DNA from: Bacteroidota bacterium
GTDB taxonomy: Bacteria; Bacteroidota; Bacteroidia; NS11-12g; UBA955
Assembly: GCA_947496065.1 (NCBI GenBank)
Contig: CANMBF010000015.1
Span: 1-58,182, forward strand
DNA length: 58,182 nt
Direction: 5' to 3'
Positions 3,346 to 15,289 of the stretch are shown here, in pieces. The translations under genes and the position numbers were made by a program. The notes under the pieces were generated by a model. The model was not told the DNA's origin. It was given only the letters and a program-made list of their open reading frames with translations, and made no database searches. The number at the start of each line of letters is the position of its first letter. Position 1 is the first letter of the stretch.

Positions 3346-3810
3346 ATGAGTGTATCACAAACCCTAAACGAAATCCTAAAATCGGTGCTCCTAGAGCATC
3401 CGAATGTATTTTTGGTGGAAGCCAATCACCATCAACAGGCCCATGAATTTATTCTGGACGGTGATCTTCCCCTTGGTATTGGTGCTATCTCTGCTGTTAG
3501 TCGCTCATTGAACCATTTTGCAGAAGAGCAATTACCTGCCGAAGAAATTTACACCATTGATGTGTGCAGCCCGGGTGCGGATAGTCCACTTAAAATGTTG
3601 AGACAATTTCCCAAGCATATTGGAAGAGAATTTGAAATTATTTTAGCAGATGATACCACCATCAAAGGCCATTTAACCGCTATAAACAACGAAGATTTAA
3701 CATTCGACTATTTTAAATCAGCCAAACCTAAAAAATCGGAACTGAAAGAGAGTATTTCAATTCCTTTTAATCAAATAAAAAAAGCAACCATTATATTATC
3801 ATTTAAATGA
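3346..3810 (+). CDS. rimP: Ribosome maturation factor RimP
   Basis: RimP binds the maturing 30S subunit and assists late 16S folding and S12 assembly. The 154-residue product has the two-domain RimP layout. The N-terminal alpha/beta domain ends in VCSPGADSPL (residues 73-82), the divergent form of the family motif VSSPGLDRPL, and the Sm-like C-terminal domain follows (about 88-154, with GHLTAI and a final IKKATIIL strand). ATG 3346 was chosen over the upstream TTG codons because it lies at normal distance from the promoter and gives a standard N terminus. It overlaps nusA by four bases (ATGA), so the two are translationally coupled, the conserved order rimP-nusA. Confidence 0.93.
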   Translation: MSVSQTLNEILKSVLLEHPNVFLVEANHHQQAHEFILDGDLPLGIGAISAVSRSLNHFAEEQLPAEEIYTIDVCSPGADSPLKMLRQFPKHIGREFEIILADDTTIKGHLTAINNEDLTFDYFKSAKPKKSELKESISIPFNQIKKATIILSFK

Positions 3811-5072
3811 AAGCAGCTTCACCACAAGTAATGACCGTTAGAGGATTGGTAGAATCCTTCAGCGAGTTCAAAGAGTTTAAAAACATCGACAGGCCCACCC
3901 TCATGCGTGTGCTTGAAGAGGTGTTCCGCAACATGCTCAAAAAACGTTATGGCGATGATACCAATTTTGATATCATTATCAATACCGAACAGGGCGATTT
4001 AGAGATTTACCGCAACCGTTTAATCGTTGATGATGGTGAGGTAGAAGATGAAAACCTTCAAATTAGTATCACCGATGCTAAAAACATAGAAGCCGATTAC
4101 GTAATTGGTGAAGAGGCCATCGACCAAGTGCCAATGGATTTCTTTGGAAGAAGAAATATTTTAGCAGCCCGTCAAACTTTAATGACCAAAATTATGGAGT
4201 TAGAGAAAGACGAGTTGATGCGCAAATACACCGATAGAGTAGGCGAAATTGTAACAGGTGAGGTATACCAAATCTGGAAAAAAGAAATCATGGTATTAGA
4301 TGATGATGGTAATGAATTACTATTGCCTAAAACCGAAATGATTGGTGCCGATTTCTACAAAAAAGGTGAGACTTTAAAAGCCATCGTTCACGAAGTGGCC
4401 ATGCACAATGGTACACCTAAAATTATTTTGTCTAGAACCTCTCCAGTGTTCCTAGAAAAATTAATGGAATTAGAAGTACCTGAAATTTTAGATGGTTTAA
4501 TCACTATTAAGAAAATTGTTAGAGAGCCAGGTGAAAGAGCCAAAATTGCAGTAGAAAGCTACGATGATAGAATCGATCCTGTTGGTGCTTGTGTGGGTAT
4601 GAAAGGTAGCAGAATACATGGTATTGTGAGAGAATTGAGAAACGAAAACATTGACGTTATCAATTTTACAACCAACCCTACTTTGTTTGTACAACGTGCC
4701 TTGAACCCAGCAAAAATATCTTCTATCGCTTTAGACGAAGTGCATAAAAAAGCCAACGTATTCTTGCACCCTGACCAAGTTAGTTTGGCCATTGGTAAAG
4801 GCGGTTTCAATATCCGTTTGGCGAGCCGTTTGGTTGGTTACGATATTGAGGTATACAGAGAAGATGCAGAGTTTGATGATTCAGATATCGACTTAGAAGA
4901 ATTCTCAGACGAGATAGATGGCTGGATAATCGATGAGCTAAAAGCCATCGGATTAGATACCGCTAAATCAGTATTAGATGCTACTACCGAAGATTTGGTA
5001 AGACGTACAGAATTAGAAGAAGAAACTGTTGTCGAAATCAAACGTATTCTAAAAACAGAATTCGAGAAGTAA
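3807..5072 (+). CDS. nusA: Transcription termination/antitermination factor NusA
   Basis: NusA binds RNA polymerase and nascent RNA and modulates pausing, termination and antitermination. The 421-residue product shows, in order, the polymerase-binding N-terminal domain (1 to about 125), an S1 domain (about 128-200), KH1 with DPVGACVGMKGSRI, KH2 with LAIGKGGFNIRLA, and a short acidic C-terminal helical segment (about 370-421). It is shorter than E. coli NusA (495 residues) because only part of the C-terminal repeat region is present, which is usual in this phylum. It begins inside the rimP stop codon. The gene often found next, infB, is absent here; a palindrome and a terminator follow instead. 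Confidence 0.95.
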   Translation: MKAASPQVMTVRGLVESFSEFKEFKNIDRPTLMRVLEEVFRNMLKKRYGDDTNFDIIINTEQGDLEIYRNRLIVDDGEVEDENLQISITDAKNIEADYVIGEEAIDQVPMDFFGRRNILAARQTLMTKIMELEKDELMRKYTDRVGEIVTGEVYQIWKKEIMVLDDDGNELLLPKTEMIGADFYKKGETLKAIVHEVAMHNGTPKIILSRTSPVFLEKLMELEVPEILDGLITIKKIVREPGERAKIAVESYDDRIDPVGACVGMKGSRIHGIVRELRNENIDVINFTTNPTLFVQRALNPAKISSIALDEVHKKANVFLHPDQVSLAIGKGGFNIRLASRLVGYDIEVYREDAEFDDSDIDLEEFSDEIDGWIIDELKAIGLDTAKSVLDATTEDLVRRTELEEETVVEIKRILKTEFEK

Positions 5073-5204: not shown

Positions 5205-5806
5205 CTTCGCCCTTTCTATGTCGCTCCTCTGGAGCTTCTTTGGGCTTTCTGGTTTTGTCTGTTACTAGGATATAGCTCCTACGGAGCTAAAAAACGCCTA
5301 GTTAATTTGACGTACCATTGCATTCTCCTTAGAAGATATAAATCCTAAGTAGCCTTAATTCTTGTTAGGACTATGGCGTTCTCCGTAGGAGAACAATCTT
5401 AGTAACATTAGGTATAACCACACACCTCTCAAGCTCCGTAGGAGCTATACCATCCCTCACTCTGAGAGAAAGTAAAAAGGTATCAACCTAAAAAAGACAT
5501 AAAAAACGTTTGCCTTTTTAACCTACCATCGAATTCTCCGTAGGAGATTAATATCTGTAACACATAGCAACCCCCACCCATCTATAGCTCCGTAGGAGCT
5601 AAACCATCCCTCGCGTTGAGAGAAAGTAAAAAGGTATCAACCTAAAAAAGACATAAAAAACGTTTGCCTTTTTAACCTACCATCGAATTCTCCGTAGGAG
5701 ATTAATATCTGTAACACATAGCAACCCCCTCCCCTCTATCGCTCCATAGGAGCGACACCATCCCTCACTCTGAGAGAAAGACACATAAAAGTATAAGCAT
5801 AAAAAA
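5205..5806. repeat. Palindromic composite array A (leader module plus three ~155-bp units)
   Basis: The array opens with a leader module containing GCTCCTCTGGAGC (5223-5235) and AGCTCCTACGGAGCT (5274-5288). Three tandem units follow, each with two palindromes: a TCTCC-GTA-GGAGA type (5378-5394, 5535-5547, 5689-5701) and a GCTCC-GTA-GGAGC type (5432-5446, 5586-5600, 5739-5755, the last with CCATAGG). Each unit then has CCATCCCTC and GAGAGAAAG. The TCTCC cores are 155 and 154 bp apart. The leader palindrome has loop TAC where the unit palindromes have GTA, so it is in opposite orientation. ORFs crossing the array look like chance. Array B (6427-7036) repeats the design beyond the lipoprotein gene. 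Confidence 0.9.
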
Positions 5807-5837
5807 AGGCAAGTAAGAATGTACTTACTTGCCTTTT
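5804..5837. terminator. Bidirectional hairpin terminator of the lipoprotein gene
   Basis: GGCAAGTAAG (5808-5817) and CTTACTTGCC (5824-5833) form a 10-bp stem with a 6-base loop. An A run lies on one side and TTTT on the other, so it can stop transcription from either strand. It lies 22 bases beyond the stop of the minus-strand lipoprotein gene. Confidence 0.8.
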
Positions 5838-5859
5838 AAAATTGTAGATGATTTGCTTA

Positions 5860-6231
5860 CTACCAAGCAGATGATTTGAAAGTTCTATTACCTCCTGATC
5901 CTATCCATTCACATTCCATTTCTGTATCTGTATTCCAATTAAATTTCCATTTAACATATACATTCGTATTGTCATCATCAATTTCCATAGTATCTGAGGT
6001 ATTTACCCATCTCCATTTTCCAACAGTACCATACGTGCCATTCGAATTTAATTTATGTATAATTGAACTCCCTTGATTGTACCATATTTTATTATTGGTA
6101 AGGGTGGCTTTATTTAAAGTTTTTGGTGTTTCTGCTGGGGTGGTGCTTTCTTTTTTGCAAGCGCCAAAGCTGATGGTTAATCCAGCTACTAAAGCCCATG
6201 CGAGCGATTTGAAGGTCATTTGTTTGGTCAT
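5860..6231 (-). CDS. Small lipoprotein, lipocalin-like fold possible
   Basis: The 123-residue product has a lipoprotein signal peptide with lipobox SFGAC followed by KKE. The mature part is about 95 residues and rich in Trp, Asn and Thr (KWRWVNTSDTMEID, YVKWKFNW). Alternating polar and aromatic residues suggest a small beta barrel of the lipocalin-like type common in Bacteroidota; that is inference. An internal Met (MTFKSL, residue 5) is an alternative start. The gene is isolated and bracketed by repeat arrays A and B, with its own terminator. Function unknown. Confidence 0.75.
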   Translation of the reverse strand: MTKQMTFKSLAWALVAGLTISFGACKKESTTPAETPKTLNKATLTNNKIWYNQGSSIIHKLNSNGTYGTVGKWRWVNTSDTMEIDDDNTNVYVKWKFNWNTDTEMECEWIGSGGNRTFKSSAW

Positions 6232-6340
6232 TGATTTGATTTATTTTTTAGATAATTTAAAGGTTATGAGATAACACGTTACCTAACAAATATATAATTT
6301 ATACTGATTCAATTCTATTTTGAGGTCAACTAAATCGTTG

Positions 6341-6357
6341 ATATATATATATATATG
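6341..6357. repeat. AT dinucleotide tract
   Basis: About eight AT units lie upstream of the lipoprotein gene. Such tracts can vary in length between isolates; here it lies about 110 bases upstream of the start, and a regulatory role is unsupported. Confidence 0.6.
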
Positions 6358-6426
6358 ATTTTCAAGCACTTATAGTTATACTTTTGATGGCCCTTTTAAG
6401 TTTTTTGTTGCGTATACAGTTACTTA

Positions 6427-7036
6427 CTTCGCCCTTTCTATGTCGCTCCTCTGGAGCTTCTTTGGGCTTTCTGGTTTTATCTGATACTAGGATATAGCTC
6501 CTACGGAGCTAAAAAACGTTAGTGTAGTTTCAAAACATTGAATTTTCTAACAGAGATATCAATCCTAAAGAGCCTTAAAAAAAATTAATTCTTGTTAGGA
6601 CTATGGCGTTCTCCGTAGGAGAACCATCTTAGTAAAATTAGATGTAACCACACACCTCTATCGCTCCGTAGGAGCGACACCATCCCTCGCGCTGAGAGAA
6701 AGGCACATAAAAGTATAAGCATAAAAAAGGTTCCAAGCCTTTGGTTACTTTACTCACTTTAGAATTCTCCGTAGGAGAATAATCTCAGTAACACAGCGCG
6801 CAACCCCTCCCCTCCATAGCTCCGTAGGAGCGACACCATCCCTCGCGCTGAGAGAAAGACACATAAAAGTATAAGCATAAAAAAGGTTCCAAGCCTTTGG
6901 TTACTTTACTCACTTTAGAATTCTCCGTAGGAGATTAATATCTGTAAAACATAGTAACCCCCACCCCTCTATAGCTCCGTAGGAGCTAAACCATCCCTCA
7001 CTCTGAGAGAAAGAAAAAGTACCAACATAAAAAAAG
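6427..7036. repeat. Palindromic composite array B (leader module plus three ~156-bp units)
   Basis: This is a second copy of the array design. The leader module has GCTCCTCTGGAGC (6445-6457) and AGCTCCTACGGAGCT (6496-6510). Three units follow, with TCTCC-type palindromes at 6608-6624, 6764-6780 and 6922-6934 and GCTCC-type at 6661-6677, 6819-6831 and 6972-6988. Spacing of the TCTCC cores is 156 and 156 bp. The last unit matches the body of array A units, while the first two share tails with the last unit of array A, so the arrays have exchanged sequence. The palindrome at 6819 has one arm of each GCTCC subtype (TAGC on the left, GCGA on the right). Confidence 0.9.
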
Positions 7037-7077: not shown

Positions 7078-7596
7078 CTACTTCACGTTTATAGTAAGCG
7101 TTTTGCTCATAGCAGGGCCATACGACATGTGCACACTGTTGCCAAACTGCAATGTGATTGTATGCATACCAGGCGTTAACATCGGGTACTTTTTAAAACT
7201 CAAAGTATCTTGCAATTGCCCTTTGCCAAAATGGTAATACCCTTCGGTTTCTTTTTGCATAGGGAACATGGTATTGGCAGGAAGTGCTGCATGATCGATC
7301 ATGATATGGTGGTGACCAACATTAGGCTCTACACCCATGGCTGGTTTTACTTCCATACCTTCGACACCAAACTTAAGAATAAAAGGTAACTTAATGTTTT
7401 GCCCTTCTTTTAAATTTGGAAAAAACACCTTTTGATTCGGCATTATGGCCGTAGTATCTTGTGCCACCGGCATGTCCATGTTTGCATCGTGTGCAGGTTC
7501 TACTGCGGTGGTTTCGGGAGCAGTTGTTGGTGCAGGTGCGTTATTGCATGCTGTAAATGCTGCAGCTGCAAATAGTGTTATTATTAGATTTTTCAT
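7078..7596 (-). CDS. DUF4399 domain lipoprotein
   Basis: The 172-residue product starts MKNLIITLFA with lipobox FTAC and Cys17, so it is a likely lipoprotein. A Thr/Pro/Ala/Glu-rich linker is followed by a DUF4399 domain (about 55-172): VFFPNLKEGQ, KFGVEGMEVKPA, GHHHIMID (His95-97) and a final GPAMSKTLTINV strand. The family's biochemical role is not established; the three His suggest metal binding. ATG 7596 was chosen because the upstream extension (MRLNQSH) would spoil the signal peptide. It is the last gene of a same-strand run with a cytochrome and a di-heme peroxidase, 89 bases after the cytochrome gene. Confidence 0.85.
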   Translation of the reverse strand: MKNLIITLFAAAAFTACNNAPAPTTAPETTAVEPAHDANMDMPVAQDTTAIMPNQKVFFPNLKEGQNIKLPFILKFGVEGMEVKPAMGVEPNVGHHHIMIDHAALPANTMFPMQKETEGYYHFGKGQLQDTLSFKKYPMLTPGMHTITLQFGNSVHMSYGPAMSKTLTINVK

Positions 7597-7685
7597 ATGT
7601 GATTGATTTAATCTCACGAAGGTAAATGTATTCCTAGCCTTACTTTTTAAAAATAATTTACATAATTATCAGATTTTACAGTCCT

Positions 7686-10070: not shown

Positions 10071-13000
10071 TTAGTTATTCTTGATGATTTTGGTGGTAGA
10101 CACCTTGCCATCAATCACGACTTTTACTAAATAGATACCAGTTGGATAATTGTTTTGATTGCTACCAAAACTGAAATTATACTGACCTGCAGAAAATGCT
10201 TCATTTACAACTAGTTCAACACGTTCTCCTAAAAGATTGAATACTTCAATGCTAACTTTTGCAGCACTTACTAAATCGATCTTAACATTTGAATTCAATG
10301 TGAATGGATTCGGAGCAATTACGTATGAATTGTTATAAACAACTTGTTTGATACTGCTTGTGTTGCCGTTACCTTGTAAAGCAATGGTATAATCAAATTC
10401 GTCAGCATCATCACTCGCAACATTTAAAGTTGCAGTTCTTACACCCGAAGCAGTTGGAGCAAATTGTACAGTAATGGTTTGAGAACCATTCGCAGCAATT
10501 ACAAGTGGTAAAGTTGGTTTACCAACAAAAGTGAATTCGCTTGCGTTAGCACCAGTAAAGTATAAGTTATCTACTGTTAAGATTCCAGCACCAGTGTTCT
10601 GAATCACAAAACTCTTAGTTGCATTGCTACCTTTATTGACTGTACCAAAGTCGGTGTTGTTTCCTACATTTGGTGTTGTTGAGCCACTTGCAATACTTAC
10701 ACTGTTACCTTGAACATTAATTTCTGCTGAAACTGCAGTTCCTTGTAAAGCAAAATCATAACTGTTTTCATCAGCATCATTGTTATTGATAGTTAATGTT
10801 GCTTTTCTTAAGCCATCTGCCAAAGGCGCAAATTTAACTGTAACAATTAATGAATCACCAGCAATGATATCTTTAGGGAAAGTAGGAGCACTTACAAGTG
10901 AGAATTCAGCTGCATTGGTACCTGCAAATTTAATTGCACTGATTGTTAAAGCACCTGGACCAGCATTCTTCACAACAAATGTTTTATTAACAGATGTCTT
11001 TGTATTTAGTGTTCCAAAATCAGTATTGTCTGCAGTCGATGGTGTGATATCACCTTTTGCAATATTTACCTTGTTACCTTTAACACTTACTTCTGGATTT
11101 GAATTATAAGTATCAGGATTGTAAAGTGTCAATAATTGACCACCTTCTACTAAATCACCTGGTAATGAATAATGCGCTTGATCAGCATAAACAAACATAC
11201 CTGGACCTAAGATATCTTGCATATCTACGATTCCTGATGACTCTTCATCTTGGGTTAAGTAACTTGAACCTCCTAAGACAAATCTGTTGGCATCGTGACG
11301 AGCTATTTCTTTCACTGCATCGGTTGCAATGGTATACTGCCAGATTTTAGCAACATAACTTTGATTGCCCGGATCTTCTTGTATCATGATATGACCGAAT
11401 TTGTCTATCACCATATTGTCCATCATTTTAGGTCCTTCTGTACCATCTAATACTGCTGTGATTGTTCCTCCATTTTCTGGGTTTGCAATATCGGTAAAAC
11501 GCAATCTCCATAAACGGCTTGGTGCTGTAAATGAATTGGTGGTTACAAAATAGAAATCATTTGGATTACTTGGATCCCATGCACCATCTTCTGGTCTTAA
11601 GAAGGCTGTTACACCTGCTGTATTACTCGCTGTATTCAATGCTGCACCTGTTGTGTTGTGTACTTGACCTAAATCAAATAATGTAAATGCAGTACCTGCT
11701 GATGGTATACTTAAACTGCTCTCAGCTGTTAAACCTGATACTTTTACACCAAATAATTTACCACCACTTAAACCAGCTTTGTCGATTTCTGATCCACTGT
11801 TGGTTTTTGTTCCAATATAGAAATAGACTTGACCTGGAGTCGCATCATCTGTTCCTGCTACAATTGTTTTGTTGCTTGTATATGGACTTGCGATTGCATT
11901 CTCCCAACTGAATTTTCCAAGGTATGGTAACTCATAAGTAGTACCTGCATTAGAACCTGTTACAATGTGACCGAAAGCTCTGCCTTCTGCACCTGCTTCT
12001 TCACCATTCATGAAGATACGCTCTGTTGTTCCTAAACCTGTAGCTGCATTGTAGAATGCACTTCCTAATGGCAAGTCACCTGCGCAAAAACGGTTGAACG
12101 CTGTAGTTGTATCTTTATAAGTACTTGTTCTCCACAATTTAACTTTTGTGATTAAATCGCTTCCACTTGCTACTGATAAGTTAGTTTTGTTAACTACCCA
12201 TTTTGATACAAAAGCACCTTTTGATCCGTGGGCGTGAACTGCTCCTAATGTACTAGACATTTCATGGTTAGCTAGGAGAGTAAATGTACCATCATTGTTA
12301 TCGTATGCACCTAAGCCATCTAGTAAACCAGCCAATCTATAGCCACCTTTTACTGAATCTCCAACTGTCATTAATGCATCGGTTTTTACACCTGAAGCTA
12401 CACCTTCTAAATATGGAGTGTTAGAACTGCTTGGTAATGCACCTTTTGATGAATTATAAGTATCAGGATTGTAAAGTGTCAATAATTGACCACCTTCTAC
12501 AATATCACCTGGTATTGAATAATGCGCTTGATCAGCATAAACAAACATACCTGCACCTAAGATATCCTGTACATCAATGATACCTGATGACTCTTCATCT
12601 TGGGTTAAGTAACTTGATCCACCTAATACAAATCTATTCGCATCGTGTTGTGCAATTAATTTTACTGCATCAGTAGCAATGGTATACTGCCATATTTTAC
12701 CAATATGTGCTTGGTTACCAACATCTTCTTGCAACATGATATGACCAAATTTATCGATACCAATATTGTCTATCATCTTCGGTCCTTCTGTACCATCTAA
12801 TACTGCTGTGATTGTTCCTCCATTTTCTGGATTTGCAATATCAGTGAAACGCAATCTCCATAAACGGCTTGGCGCTGTAAATGAATTGGTAGTTGCAAAA
12901 TAGAAATCATTTGGATTGCTTGGATCCCATGCACCATCTTCTGGTCTTAAGAATGTTGTTACACCTGCTGTATTACTAGCAGTATTCAATGCTGCACCTG

Positions 13001-15143
13001 TTGTGTTGTGTACTTGACCTAAATCAAATAAGGTGAACGCTGTACCTGCTGATGGTATACTTGAACTGCTCTCAGCTGTTAAGCCTGATACTTTTACACC
13101 AAATAATTTACCACCATTCAAACCAGCTTTTTCTATCTCAGTACCACTGTTGGTTTTTGTTCCAATGTAGAAATATACTTGACCTGGAGTAGCATCATCT
13201 GTTCCTGCTACAACTGTTTTGTTGCTTGCGTATGGACTAGCGATTGAATTCTCCCAACTGAATTTACCAAGGTATGGTAACTCATAAGTAGTACCTGCAT
13301 TAGTACCTGTTACAATGTGACCGAAAGCTCTACCTTCTGGACCTGACTCTTCGCCATTCATAAAGATACGCTCTTGGGTTCCTAAACCTGTAGCTGCATT
13401 GTAGAATGAGCTTACCGGTGGTAAATCTGATGAACAAAAACGGTTAAACGCTGTAGTCGTATCTTTATAAGCACTTGTTCTCCACAATTTAACTTTTGTA
13501 ATTAAATCGCTTCCACTTGTTACTGCTAAATCTGATTTGTTAATATTCCATTTTGATACAAAGGCACCTTTTGATCCGTGGGCATGAACTGCTCCAAGGG
13601 TGTTGCCCATTTCATGGCTCACTAATACTGTAAAAGTTCCGTTGCCATTGTCGTATGCTCCTAAACCATCAGGTAAACCTGCCATTCTATAGCCACCTTT
13701 TACTGAATCGCCAGCGGTGATTAATGCATTGGTTTTTACACCTGAAGCTACACCCTCTAAATATGGAGTGTTAGAACTGCTTGGACCTGCACCGGTAGAA
13801 GGACCATTTCTAAAGCTTTTAAGCTTATTTGAGCCTTTTAATCCATAGGTATAAATGTGACAAAGTATTGATGTTGGCACAGGAATTCCATCCTGAGCAG
13901 TACATACTTGTCCAAAGTCATTGTCGTTACAAACTGCAATGGTACTATCATTAACAATGGCTAAACCTTCAGGTTTATCCAATGCTGCAGCCCAACCGTT
14001 TGCCAATAGATCTATAAATAATTTTTTCTTTACTGGTTTAACACCATTCGCTGCTAAGCCAGTAGAATCAACTAATGCTTCTAATGTTTTTCCGCCATAT
14101 AAACCAGAGTTAACGGCAGTAGCGCCATTAATATTAATTAAGTAAACACTCTTTCTATCTGTTGTTCCTCTAACTGCGTGATCAATTAACAAAAATGTTG
14201 AATCATTCACAGCAGCCATATCACCTATTTTCCAATCTCTGAATCTAATTTGGTTTGAACCAACACCAACAGGACCATCATTTAGGTATACATACATTTT
14301 TGATGTATTTGTAATAGGATCAATTTCAATCATTCTGTGCACTCTTGTTGCTTCTCCAATTGTTGTTGTTGGATATAAAATTGGACTCTGAATAATGGCA
14401 TAAATTTTACCATTAGGGGTAATAGACAAACCTTCAAAACCACGGTTATTTTTGCGATATGCAAAACATGAATCAATATAAATATCTTGTGCTTGTGCAC
14501 CAACTTTTTTAGCATATGGAGTGAATCTTGAAATAACAACACCATTAGGATTTAATTTCCAAATGGTAGGACCACCCTCTTCACTTATCCAAAAGTTACC
14601 ATCTTTGTCTACCACAATACCTTCGGCATCAATGCCCCAAATGTCTTTGGCAGCAATTTTTAAATTAAATTTAGAACAATTCAAAACTGTATCAGTAGAG
14701 GCTTGCTCTGTAGCAGTACTTCCAAACCCTGTTGGGTTCATGATACCTGTAGCGTCTGTACCACCTGGACGTTTAATTGAAATTGTTTTTAAAATTTGTA
14801 CTGAATCACCATTCAACTTAACTCTGAAAATTTTTGGAGCGTAAGTAGGTAAACCAAACATTTTGTCATAAGTAGGACGACACGTTAATGGATTGGCATT
14901 GGCCGCATCTACATTCATTCCTCTGTCAGAAATTACCCAAAATTCCTTACCATTTGTGTTAGGAATTGGATACATACCTGAAAAACCACCTTCCTTGAAT
15001 TTGATACCTTGGAAGGTGCCAATGGGCGCTGAATAATTGTTCTTGTAGTCTTGCAAAAGTGTGATTTGCGCATTCACACTCTTGTTGAGTATCGCTGCGA
15101 AAAAGAGCGATAAGACAAGCTTTAAAGTTGATTTTGATTTCAT
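10071..15143 (-). CDS. T9SS-exported protein: esterase-phytase-like domain, two PhoX/DUF839-like domains, two choice-of-anchor-D domains
   Basis: The 1690-residue product has a signal peptide (MKSKSTLKLV to VNAQ). First comes an esterase-like-activity-of-phytase domain (about 25-450; FWVISDRG, GIDAEGIVVD, FEGLSITPNG). Two near-identical 450-residue copies of a PhoX/DUF839-like domain follow (from about 455 and 905; TPYLEGVASGVKT, HEMG or HEMS, EDGAWDPSNPNDFYF). Next are two immunoglobulin-like choice-of-anchor-D domains (DFGTLN or DFGTVN with NDADE and DDADE). The C terminus is a T9SS type A sorting domain (APNPFTLNSN, YPTGIYLVKV, final KIIKNN). PhoX relatives are calcium/iron phosphatases; activity here is inferred. 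ATG 15143 was preferred over GTG 15167 because it starts a clean signal peptide. Confidence 0.85.
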   Translation of the reverse strand: MKSKSTLKLVLSLFFAAILNKSVNAQITLLQDYKNNYSAPIGTFQGIKFKEGGFSGMYPIPNTNGKEFWVISDRGMNVDAANANPLTCRPTYDKMFGLPTYAPKIFRVKLNGDSVQILKTISIKRPGGTDATGIMNPTGFGSTATEQASTDTVLNCSKFNLKIAAKDIWGIDAEGIVVDKDGNFWISEEGGPTIWKLNPNGVVISRFTPYAKKVGAQAQDIYIDSCFAYRKNNRGFEGLSITPNGKIYAIIQSPILYPTTTIGEATRVHRMIEIDPITNTSKMYVYLNDGPVGVGSNQIRFRDWKIGDMAAVNDSTFLLIDHAVRGTTDRKSVYLININGATAVNSGLYGGKTLEALVDSTGLAANGVKPVKKKLFIDLLANGWAAALDKPEGLAIVNDSTIAVCNDNDFGQVCTAQDGIPVPTSILCHIYTYGLKGSNKLKSFRNGPSTGAGPSSSNTPYLEGVASGVKTNALITAGDSVKGGYRMAGLPDGLGAYDNGNGTFTVLVSHEMGNTLGAVHAHGSKGAFVSKWNINKSDLAVTSGSDLITKVKLWRTSAYKDTTTAFNRFCSSDLPPVSSFYNAATGLGTQERIFMNGEESGPEGRAFGHIVTGTNAGTTYELPYLGKFSWENSIASPYASNKTVVAGTDDATPGQVYFYIGTKTNSGTEIEKAGLNGGKLFGVKVSGLTAESSSSIPSAGTAFTLFDLGQVHNTTGAALNTASNTAGVTTFLRPEDGAWDPSNPNDFYFATTNSFTAPSRLWRLRFTDIANPENGGTITAVLDGTEGPKMIDNIGIDKFGHIMLQEDVGNQAHIGKIWQYTIATDAVKLIAQHDANRFVLGGSSYLTQDEESSGIIDVQDILGAGMFVYADQAHYSIPGDIVEGGQLLTLYNPDTYNSSKGALPSSSNTPYLEGVASGVKTDALMTVGDSVKGGYRLAGLLDGLGAYDNNDGTFTLLANHEMSSTLGAVHAHGSKGAFVSKWVVNKTNLSVASGSDLITKVKLWRTSTYKDTTTAFNRFCAGDLPLGSAFYNAATGLGTTERIFMNGEEAGAEGRAFGHIVTGSNAGTTYELPYLGKFSWENAIASPYTSNKTIVAGTDDATPGQVYFYIGTKTNSGSEIDKAGLSGGKLFGVKVSGLTAESSLSIPSAGTAFTLFDLGQVHNTTGAALNTASNTAGVTAFLRPEDGAWDPSNPNDFYFVTTNSFTAPSRLWRLRFTDIANPENGGTITAVLDGTEGPKMMDNMVIDKFGHIMIQEDPGNQSYVAKIWQYTIATDAVKEIARHDANRFVLGGSSYLTQDEESSGIVDMQDILGPGMFVYADQAHYSLPGDLVEGGQLLTLYNPDTYNSNPEVSVKGNKVNIAKGDITPSTADNTDFGTLNTKTSVNKTFVVKNAGPGALTISAIKFAGTNAAEFSLVSAPTFPKDIIAGDSLIVTVKFAPLADGLRKATLTINNNDADENSYDFALQGTAVSAEINVQGNSVSIASGSTTPNVGNNTDFGTVNKGSNATKSFVIQNTGAGILTVDNLYFTGANASEFTFVGKPTLPLVIAANGSQTITVQFAPTASGVRTATLNVASDDADEFDYTIALQGNGNTSSIKQVVYNNSYVIAPNPFTLNSNVKIDLVSAAKVSIEVFNLLGERVELVVNEAFSAGQYNFSFGSNQNNYPTGIYLVKVVIDGKVSTTKIIKNN

Positions 15144-15289
15144 TTTAATATGATTGGTTGAATGCACAAAAATCCACTTATAGTGTTTCGCAAAACCTAT
15201 ATCAATATTAAAAAATGACTATGCTTACCTTAATTTTAGTAGAATTTAATGTGAATTTAGAGCTACTAATCATGTTAAAATACTGGTGC

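Follow-up and report, generated by a model that had tools for sequence, protein, structure and literature searches.

Two arrays of double-hairpin units that flank a small lipoprotein gene in a Bacteroidota genome are best explained, taken as a whole, as clusters of REP-like non-autonomous elements, a reading to which we give a probability of about 0.72. It is favored because of the anatomy of the arrays, the dispersal of their relatives, the covariation of their stems and the association of kindred palindromes with tnpA genes. The system is most likely a variant one, and is filed as such because it departs from classical REPs in the GTAG foot, the copy number and the inverted pairing. The genome under study, a 2.9 Mb draft, is referred to as G000, and the window is the 58 kb stretch of it that was analyzed here.

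Organization of the arrays

The features of the locus are as follows.

3807..5072 (+): nusA, conserved left neighbor and anchor of the locus
5205-5785: array 1, whole array
5205..5296 (-): array 1 leader, inverted hairpin doublet, palindromes at 5223 and 5275, spacing 52 nt
5370..5524 (+): array 1 unit 1, TCTCCGTAGGAGA at 5380 and GCTCCGTAGGAGC at 5433
5525..5678 (+): array 1 unit 2, palindromes at 5535 and 5587, with the tail ATATCTGTAACA in between
5679..5785 (+): array 1 unit 3, palindromes at 5689 and 5741, the second with an ATA loop
5860..6231 (-): small lipoprotein gene between the arrays, 123 aa, lipobox-like signal
6427-7028: array 2, whole array
6427..6518 (-): array 2 leader, likewise an inverted hairpin doublet, sharing 98% identity with the leader of array 1
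6600..6755 (+): array 2 unit 1, palindromes at 6610 and 6663
6756..6911 (+): array 2 unit 2, palindromes at 6766 and 6819
6912..7028 (+): array 2 unit 3, palindromes at 6922 and 6974
7078..7617 (-): DUF4399 lipoprotein gene, conserved right neighbor

A sequence-only reading of this DNA had described two arrays, each with a leader and three double-hairpin units of about 155 bp, forming long direct repeats of about 600 bp around one lipoprotein gene. This description was borne out: the units measure 154-156 nt, and the arrays are 81% identical over 588/577 nt. They are direct copies of each other, so the mirrored design once attributed to them has to be given up; nor is the leader a separate module, as it consists of the double hairpin of the units, inverted. 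Each array therefore holds eight palindromes, one inverted doublet in the 92 nt leader and three direct doublets in the units. In every unit, TCTCC-GTA-GGAGA is followed 52-53 nt on by GCTCC-GGAGC with a GTA or ATA loop. In the window, GTAA lies about 11 nt 3' of the first hairpin. Array 1 also contains a degenerate palindrome near 5327, between its leader and unit 1.

All 16 palindromes of this five-bp-stem kind in the window lie within the arrays, and all are perfect; the 12 palindromes elsewhere in the window are unrelated to them. Across the whole genome, the pattern CTCCnnAGGAG has 30 strand matches (19 + 11) against 5 for the reversed-pattern control, and 16 of the 30 fall in the two arrays, a concentration far above chance.

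Both arrays sit between open reading frames, array 1 between convergent genes. The bracketed lipoprotein has no Pfam or NCBIfam assignment. A comparison with plasmids gave no match. Elsewhere in the window, positions 10071-15167 encode a secreted protein of 1698 aa in which two similar blocks, several hundred residues in length, form a long internal duplication.

Dispersal in the genome and its genus

The window units form one subfamily within a dispersed double-hairpin repeat, whose conserved core consists of the palindrome, N3 and ATATCTGTAAC. When the stem was relaxed (CCGTAGG-N6-ATATCnGTAA, at most two mismatches), 30 matches were found on several contigs of G000, compared with one in the reversed control, and this pattern is abundant in six of 17 genomes of the genus. 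Searching the genome and its relatives with the core units, the check originally suggested for this locus, returned copies outside the window, including a lone unit on contig C34 (77% identity) and further units in the relatives G010 and G014. The units are thus not confined to this locus, nor is the locus invariant, as described below.

Single doublets and further arrays are scattered through G000 and its nearest relatives, and many doublets bracket nothing special. Other arrays and doublets of this genome, on C36, on C51 and on C2 near recA, carry other stems. The C36 array (L324 3130-3656) is composed of five tandem units of 128-129 nt, each with a single ACCCC-type hairpin. On C51, a lipoate-ligase-like gene is flanked by doublets (L325 2658-2721 and 4007-4070), bracketed in the same way as the gene at the window locus. 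Furthermore, unit number varies between orthologous loci, as seen for C36 versus G010:C61, C51 versus G010:C7 and G014:C112, and C12 versus G003:C3.

Y1 transposase genes and their flanking hairpins

The absence of a transposase near the arrays, already remarked from the sequence alone, holds for Y1 genes throughout the window; G000 has two such genes, on C2 and C65, both outside it. The C2 tnpA (G000:C2:125572-126033; L001 1396-1857) is single-copy and is embedded among clustered ATCCCGTAGGGAT doublets that point either way, with 11 ATCCCGTAGGGAT-type palindromes around it and doublets spaced 50-52 nt. One of these doublets has the tail ATAATATCTGTAACACAT, common to the window units; the stem at this gene is ATCCC, unlike the TCTCC/GCTCC of the window. 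Its product of 153 aa bears the motifs DHLH, WQEG and YIENQEEHH, is labeled IS200/IS605 by NCBIfam and matches solved IS200/IS605-type transposases (best E 4e-8). These features fit subclass 1.2 (Y---Q--HH, WQ, DH[IVL]H, about 150 aa, low copy number), a group for which no REPs were reported and whose members are not insertion sequences (Quentin et al. 2018, PMC6006769). The expectation of a RAYT elsewhere in the genome was therefore realized in part, in that a REP-type Y1 gene exists, but the likely partner of the units is an IS200-like subclass 1.2 TnpA and not a classical GTAG RAYT.

The second Y1 gene (G000:C65; L002 1492-1880) encodes 129 aa, with a C-terminus shortened by a stop past which recognizable coding sequence continues, and has no arrays or doublets alongside. 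Class 2-like Y1 genes of the genus were rejected as partners, since this palindrome type does not flank them. Four genomes of the genus encode a TnpA with at least 60% identity to that of C2, and all four belong to the six repeat-rich ones (Fisher p 0.006, uncorrected for phylogeny); G006 and G010, the latter 83% complete, have the repeats with only more distant TnpAs (41-50%).

The association extends across the phylum. A set of 80 relatives of the C2 TnpA, 61-96% identical, was drawn from Flavobacterium, Emticicia, Chitinophagaceae, Spirosoma and other Bacteroidota, and 72 of them carry the Y---Q--HH motif. Most of these 80 genes have such palindromes beside them: CCnTAGG-type palindromes occurred in 85 of 153 near intervals (600 bp beside tnpA) versus 2 of 144 far intervals (1.6-2.2 kb away; p 6e-29). 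Neighboring palindromes in the same orientation show a spacing peak at 47-53 nt, as in the window. Their stems covary through compensatory changes: among 98 copies selected by tail alone, stem position 5 is paired in 94 against 48 expected, with A-T in 47 and G-C in 47. GTA forms the loop in 93 copies, and in single-stranded DNA triloops of the cGNAg kind have unusual stability; a standard energy model gave no strand preference of the hairpins. GTAG follows the first hairpin in 42% of copies and is absent at the hairpin foot. The CTCC/GGAG stem type of the window, as ACTCCGTAGGAGT, flanks three Flavobacterium tnpA genes. More distant subclass 1.2 genes (L097, L099, L100 and L107) stand beside different hairpins, again spaced 48-52 nt. 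One of them, L097 (G008:C14), is accompanied by six GCCCTGAAAGGGC hairpins that are absent elsewhere in G008 by exact match, so not every pair of tnpA and hairpin spreads.

An abundant palindrome family of Bacteroidota is in this way linked to a transposase subclass (1.2) reported without REPs. No earlier description of the family was found in the open-licence literature by repeat sequence or by RAYT/Flavobacterium. Tentatively, and at somewhat under even odds, we suggest that Bacteroidota subclass 1.2 TnpAs may constitute a second lineage of REP-mobilizing domesticated transposases, derived from IS200 independently of class 2 RAYTs, in which each clade would have its own direct double-hairpin REP and the CCGTAGG palindromes of the phylum would be the substrates. 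If TnpA processes the doublets, domestication with REP formation arose more than once from IS200-type enzymes, and the conserved and variable parts of the doublets would offer a ready substrate set for recognition.

Gene turnover at the locus

The neighborhood of nusA and the DUF4399 lipoprotein gene is conserved in G000, G003 and G006, and the lipoprotein gene between the arrays turns over among relatives. The close relative G003 has neither the arrays nor this gene, and a different gene takes its place. In G006:C50 (L077 5110-7090), there are two tandem lipoprotein copies with degenerate array remnants between them; these copies are identical in the upstream and signal-peptide part, and their mature domains differ strongly. 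Agreement of the G000 gene with one or other of the two G006 copies comes in blocks (66 sites, 22 runs, shuffle p 0.003), a pattern that fits recombination or conversion and other histories too. G010, which is 97% identical upstream, has one array followed by an unrelated ORF absent from G000, and its contig ends 675 bp past the array; the G014 contig begins inside the array.

In several genus relatives, the lipoprotein family occurs in tandem pairs without arrays, and a cassette function is for this reason unproven. Carriage of the lipoprotein as array cargo was rejected, as palindromes of this kind are lacking beside its relatives in G004, G007, G008 and G012. Most probably the gene is a bystander, and the repeats make its turnover easier. 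Variation among relatives agrees with the earlier idea that the flanked gene could be exchanged, lost or duplicated, but the arrayless tandem pairs and the 81% identity of the arrays leave exchange by recombination between them at the level of a possibility.

Proposed mechanism and alternative explanations

In the proposed element, two short hairpins with stems of 5-7 bp and mostly a GTA loop follow each other as a direct doublet about 52 nt apart, and a ATATCTGTAAC-type motif comes after the first. Each hairpin would fold in single-stranded DNA and be recognized by the single-copy HUH/Y1 subclass 1.2 transposase, which would cleave and rejoin the strand and thereby seed new doublets in intergenic DNA; we infer this cleavage and mobilization from the known biochemistry of TnpA_REP (PMC8266576). 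Seeded doublets could then grow into tandem arrays via replication slippage or recombination. The lipoprotein gene would be a bystander in an intergenic stretch that gathered two arrays, and homologous recombination between array copies could duplicate, convert or delete it, which may account for its turnover. The weak points of the REP-like reading are a missing cognate stem, as neither of the two G000 tnpA loci, both examined, has TCTCC/GCTCC flanks, and a missing empty-site pair, as no clean empty and filled insertion sites were obtained in the relatives compared. The lack of GTAG at the hairpin foot, the restriction of the GCCCTGAAAGGGC hairpins of G008 to its tnpA locus and the distant TnpAs of the repeat-bearing G006 and G010 also count against it.

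The missing cognate stem would also suit a relic subfamily, in which the CTCC/GGAG doublets were spread by a now-lost transposase and have been diverging in place, array changes being due to replication slippage. The degenerate G006 copies and the 81% identity of the arrays agree with such a history; however, all 16 hairpins are still perfect palindromes and the tail motif of the window equals that of the C2 REPs, and we regard it as possible but rather unlikely. The idea that the arrays are functional recombination sites and the gene an exchangeable cassette, selected for swapping surface lipoproteins, draws on the G003 locus with another gene, the two G006 copies and their blockwise likeness to the G000 gene (p 0.003), the unrelated ORF after the G010 array, and the C51 doublets that also bracket one gene. 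Nevertheless, it appears improbable: tandem pairs of the family exist where there are no arrays, array 1 shares just 81% identity with array 2, many doublets bracket nothing special, and the G010 contig stops 675 bp beyond its array.

A role as cis-acting RNA elements, either terminators or mRNA-stabilizing hairpins at convergent gene ends, is very improbable. Array 1 does lie between convergent genes, and in the inverted leaders the hairpins at 5223 and 6445 have a weak T-rich tail, but the unit hairpins have no T tract, for which reason intrinsic terminators were rejected for them, no Rfam family matches, and the hairpins cluster at tnpA genes across the phylum.

Comparison with known systems

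CRISPR arrays likewise consist of regular palindrome-bearing repeats, but these are separated by unique spacers, whereas the linkers between palindromes are here repeated too. IS200/IS605 elements such as IS608 and ISDra2 share the transposase family and subterminal single-stranded DNA hairpins; they differ in that near-identical multiple gene copies are absent here and the hairpins are dispersed without the gene.

The closest parallel is found in REP, BIME and REPIN sequences with their TnpA_REP (RAYT) (PMC2817692, PMC3116915, PMC6006769, PMC8266576), and the likeness to REP/BIME elements seen in the initial reading stands in the broad sense. In both cases, short intergenic palindromes are dispersed at several genome sites and in mosaic clusters, a Y1 HUH transposase gene of low copy number has palindromes on its flanks (here C2 and the 80 loci), and stems covary. 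The basic unit departs from that model, being a direct doublet about 52 nt apart where BIMEs and REPINs pair inverted copies; inversion occurs here only between leader and units. Classical REPs have GTAG at the hairpin foot, whereas GT[AG]G is absent from the 5' foot here and GTAG or GTAA follows the first hairpin, and about 30 pattern matches contrast with the usual >100 copies per genome. While RAYTs belong to class 2, the transposase here is of the IS200-like subclass 1.2, with which the C2 protein shares its length of about 150 aa, DH[ILV]H, WQ and Y---Q--HH motifs, few copies and occurrence in Bacteroidota; no REPs are listed for that subclass (PMC6006769), yet the genes described here are flanked by REP-like doublets.
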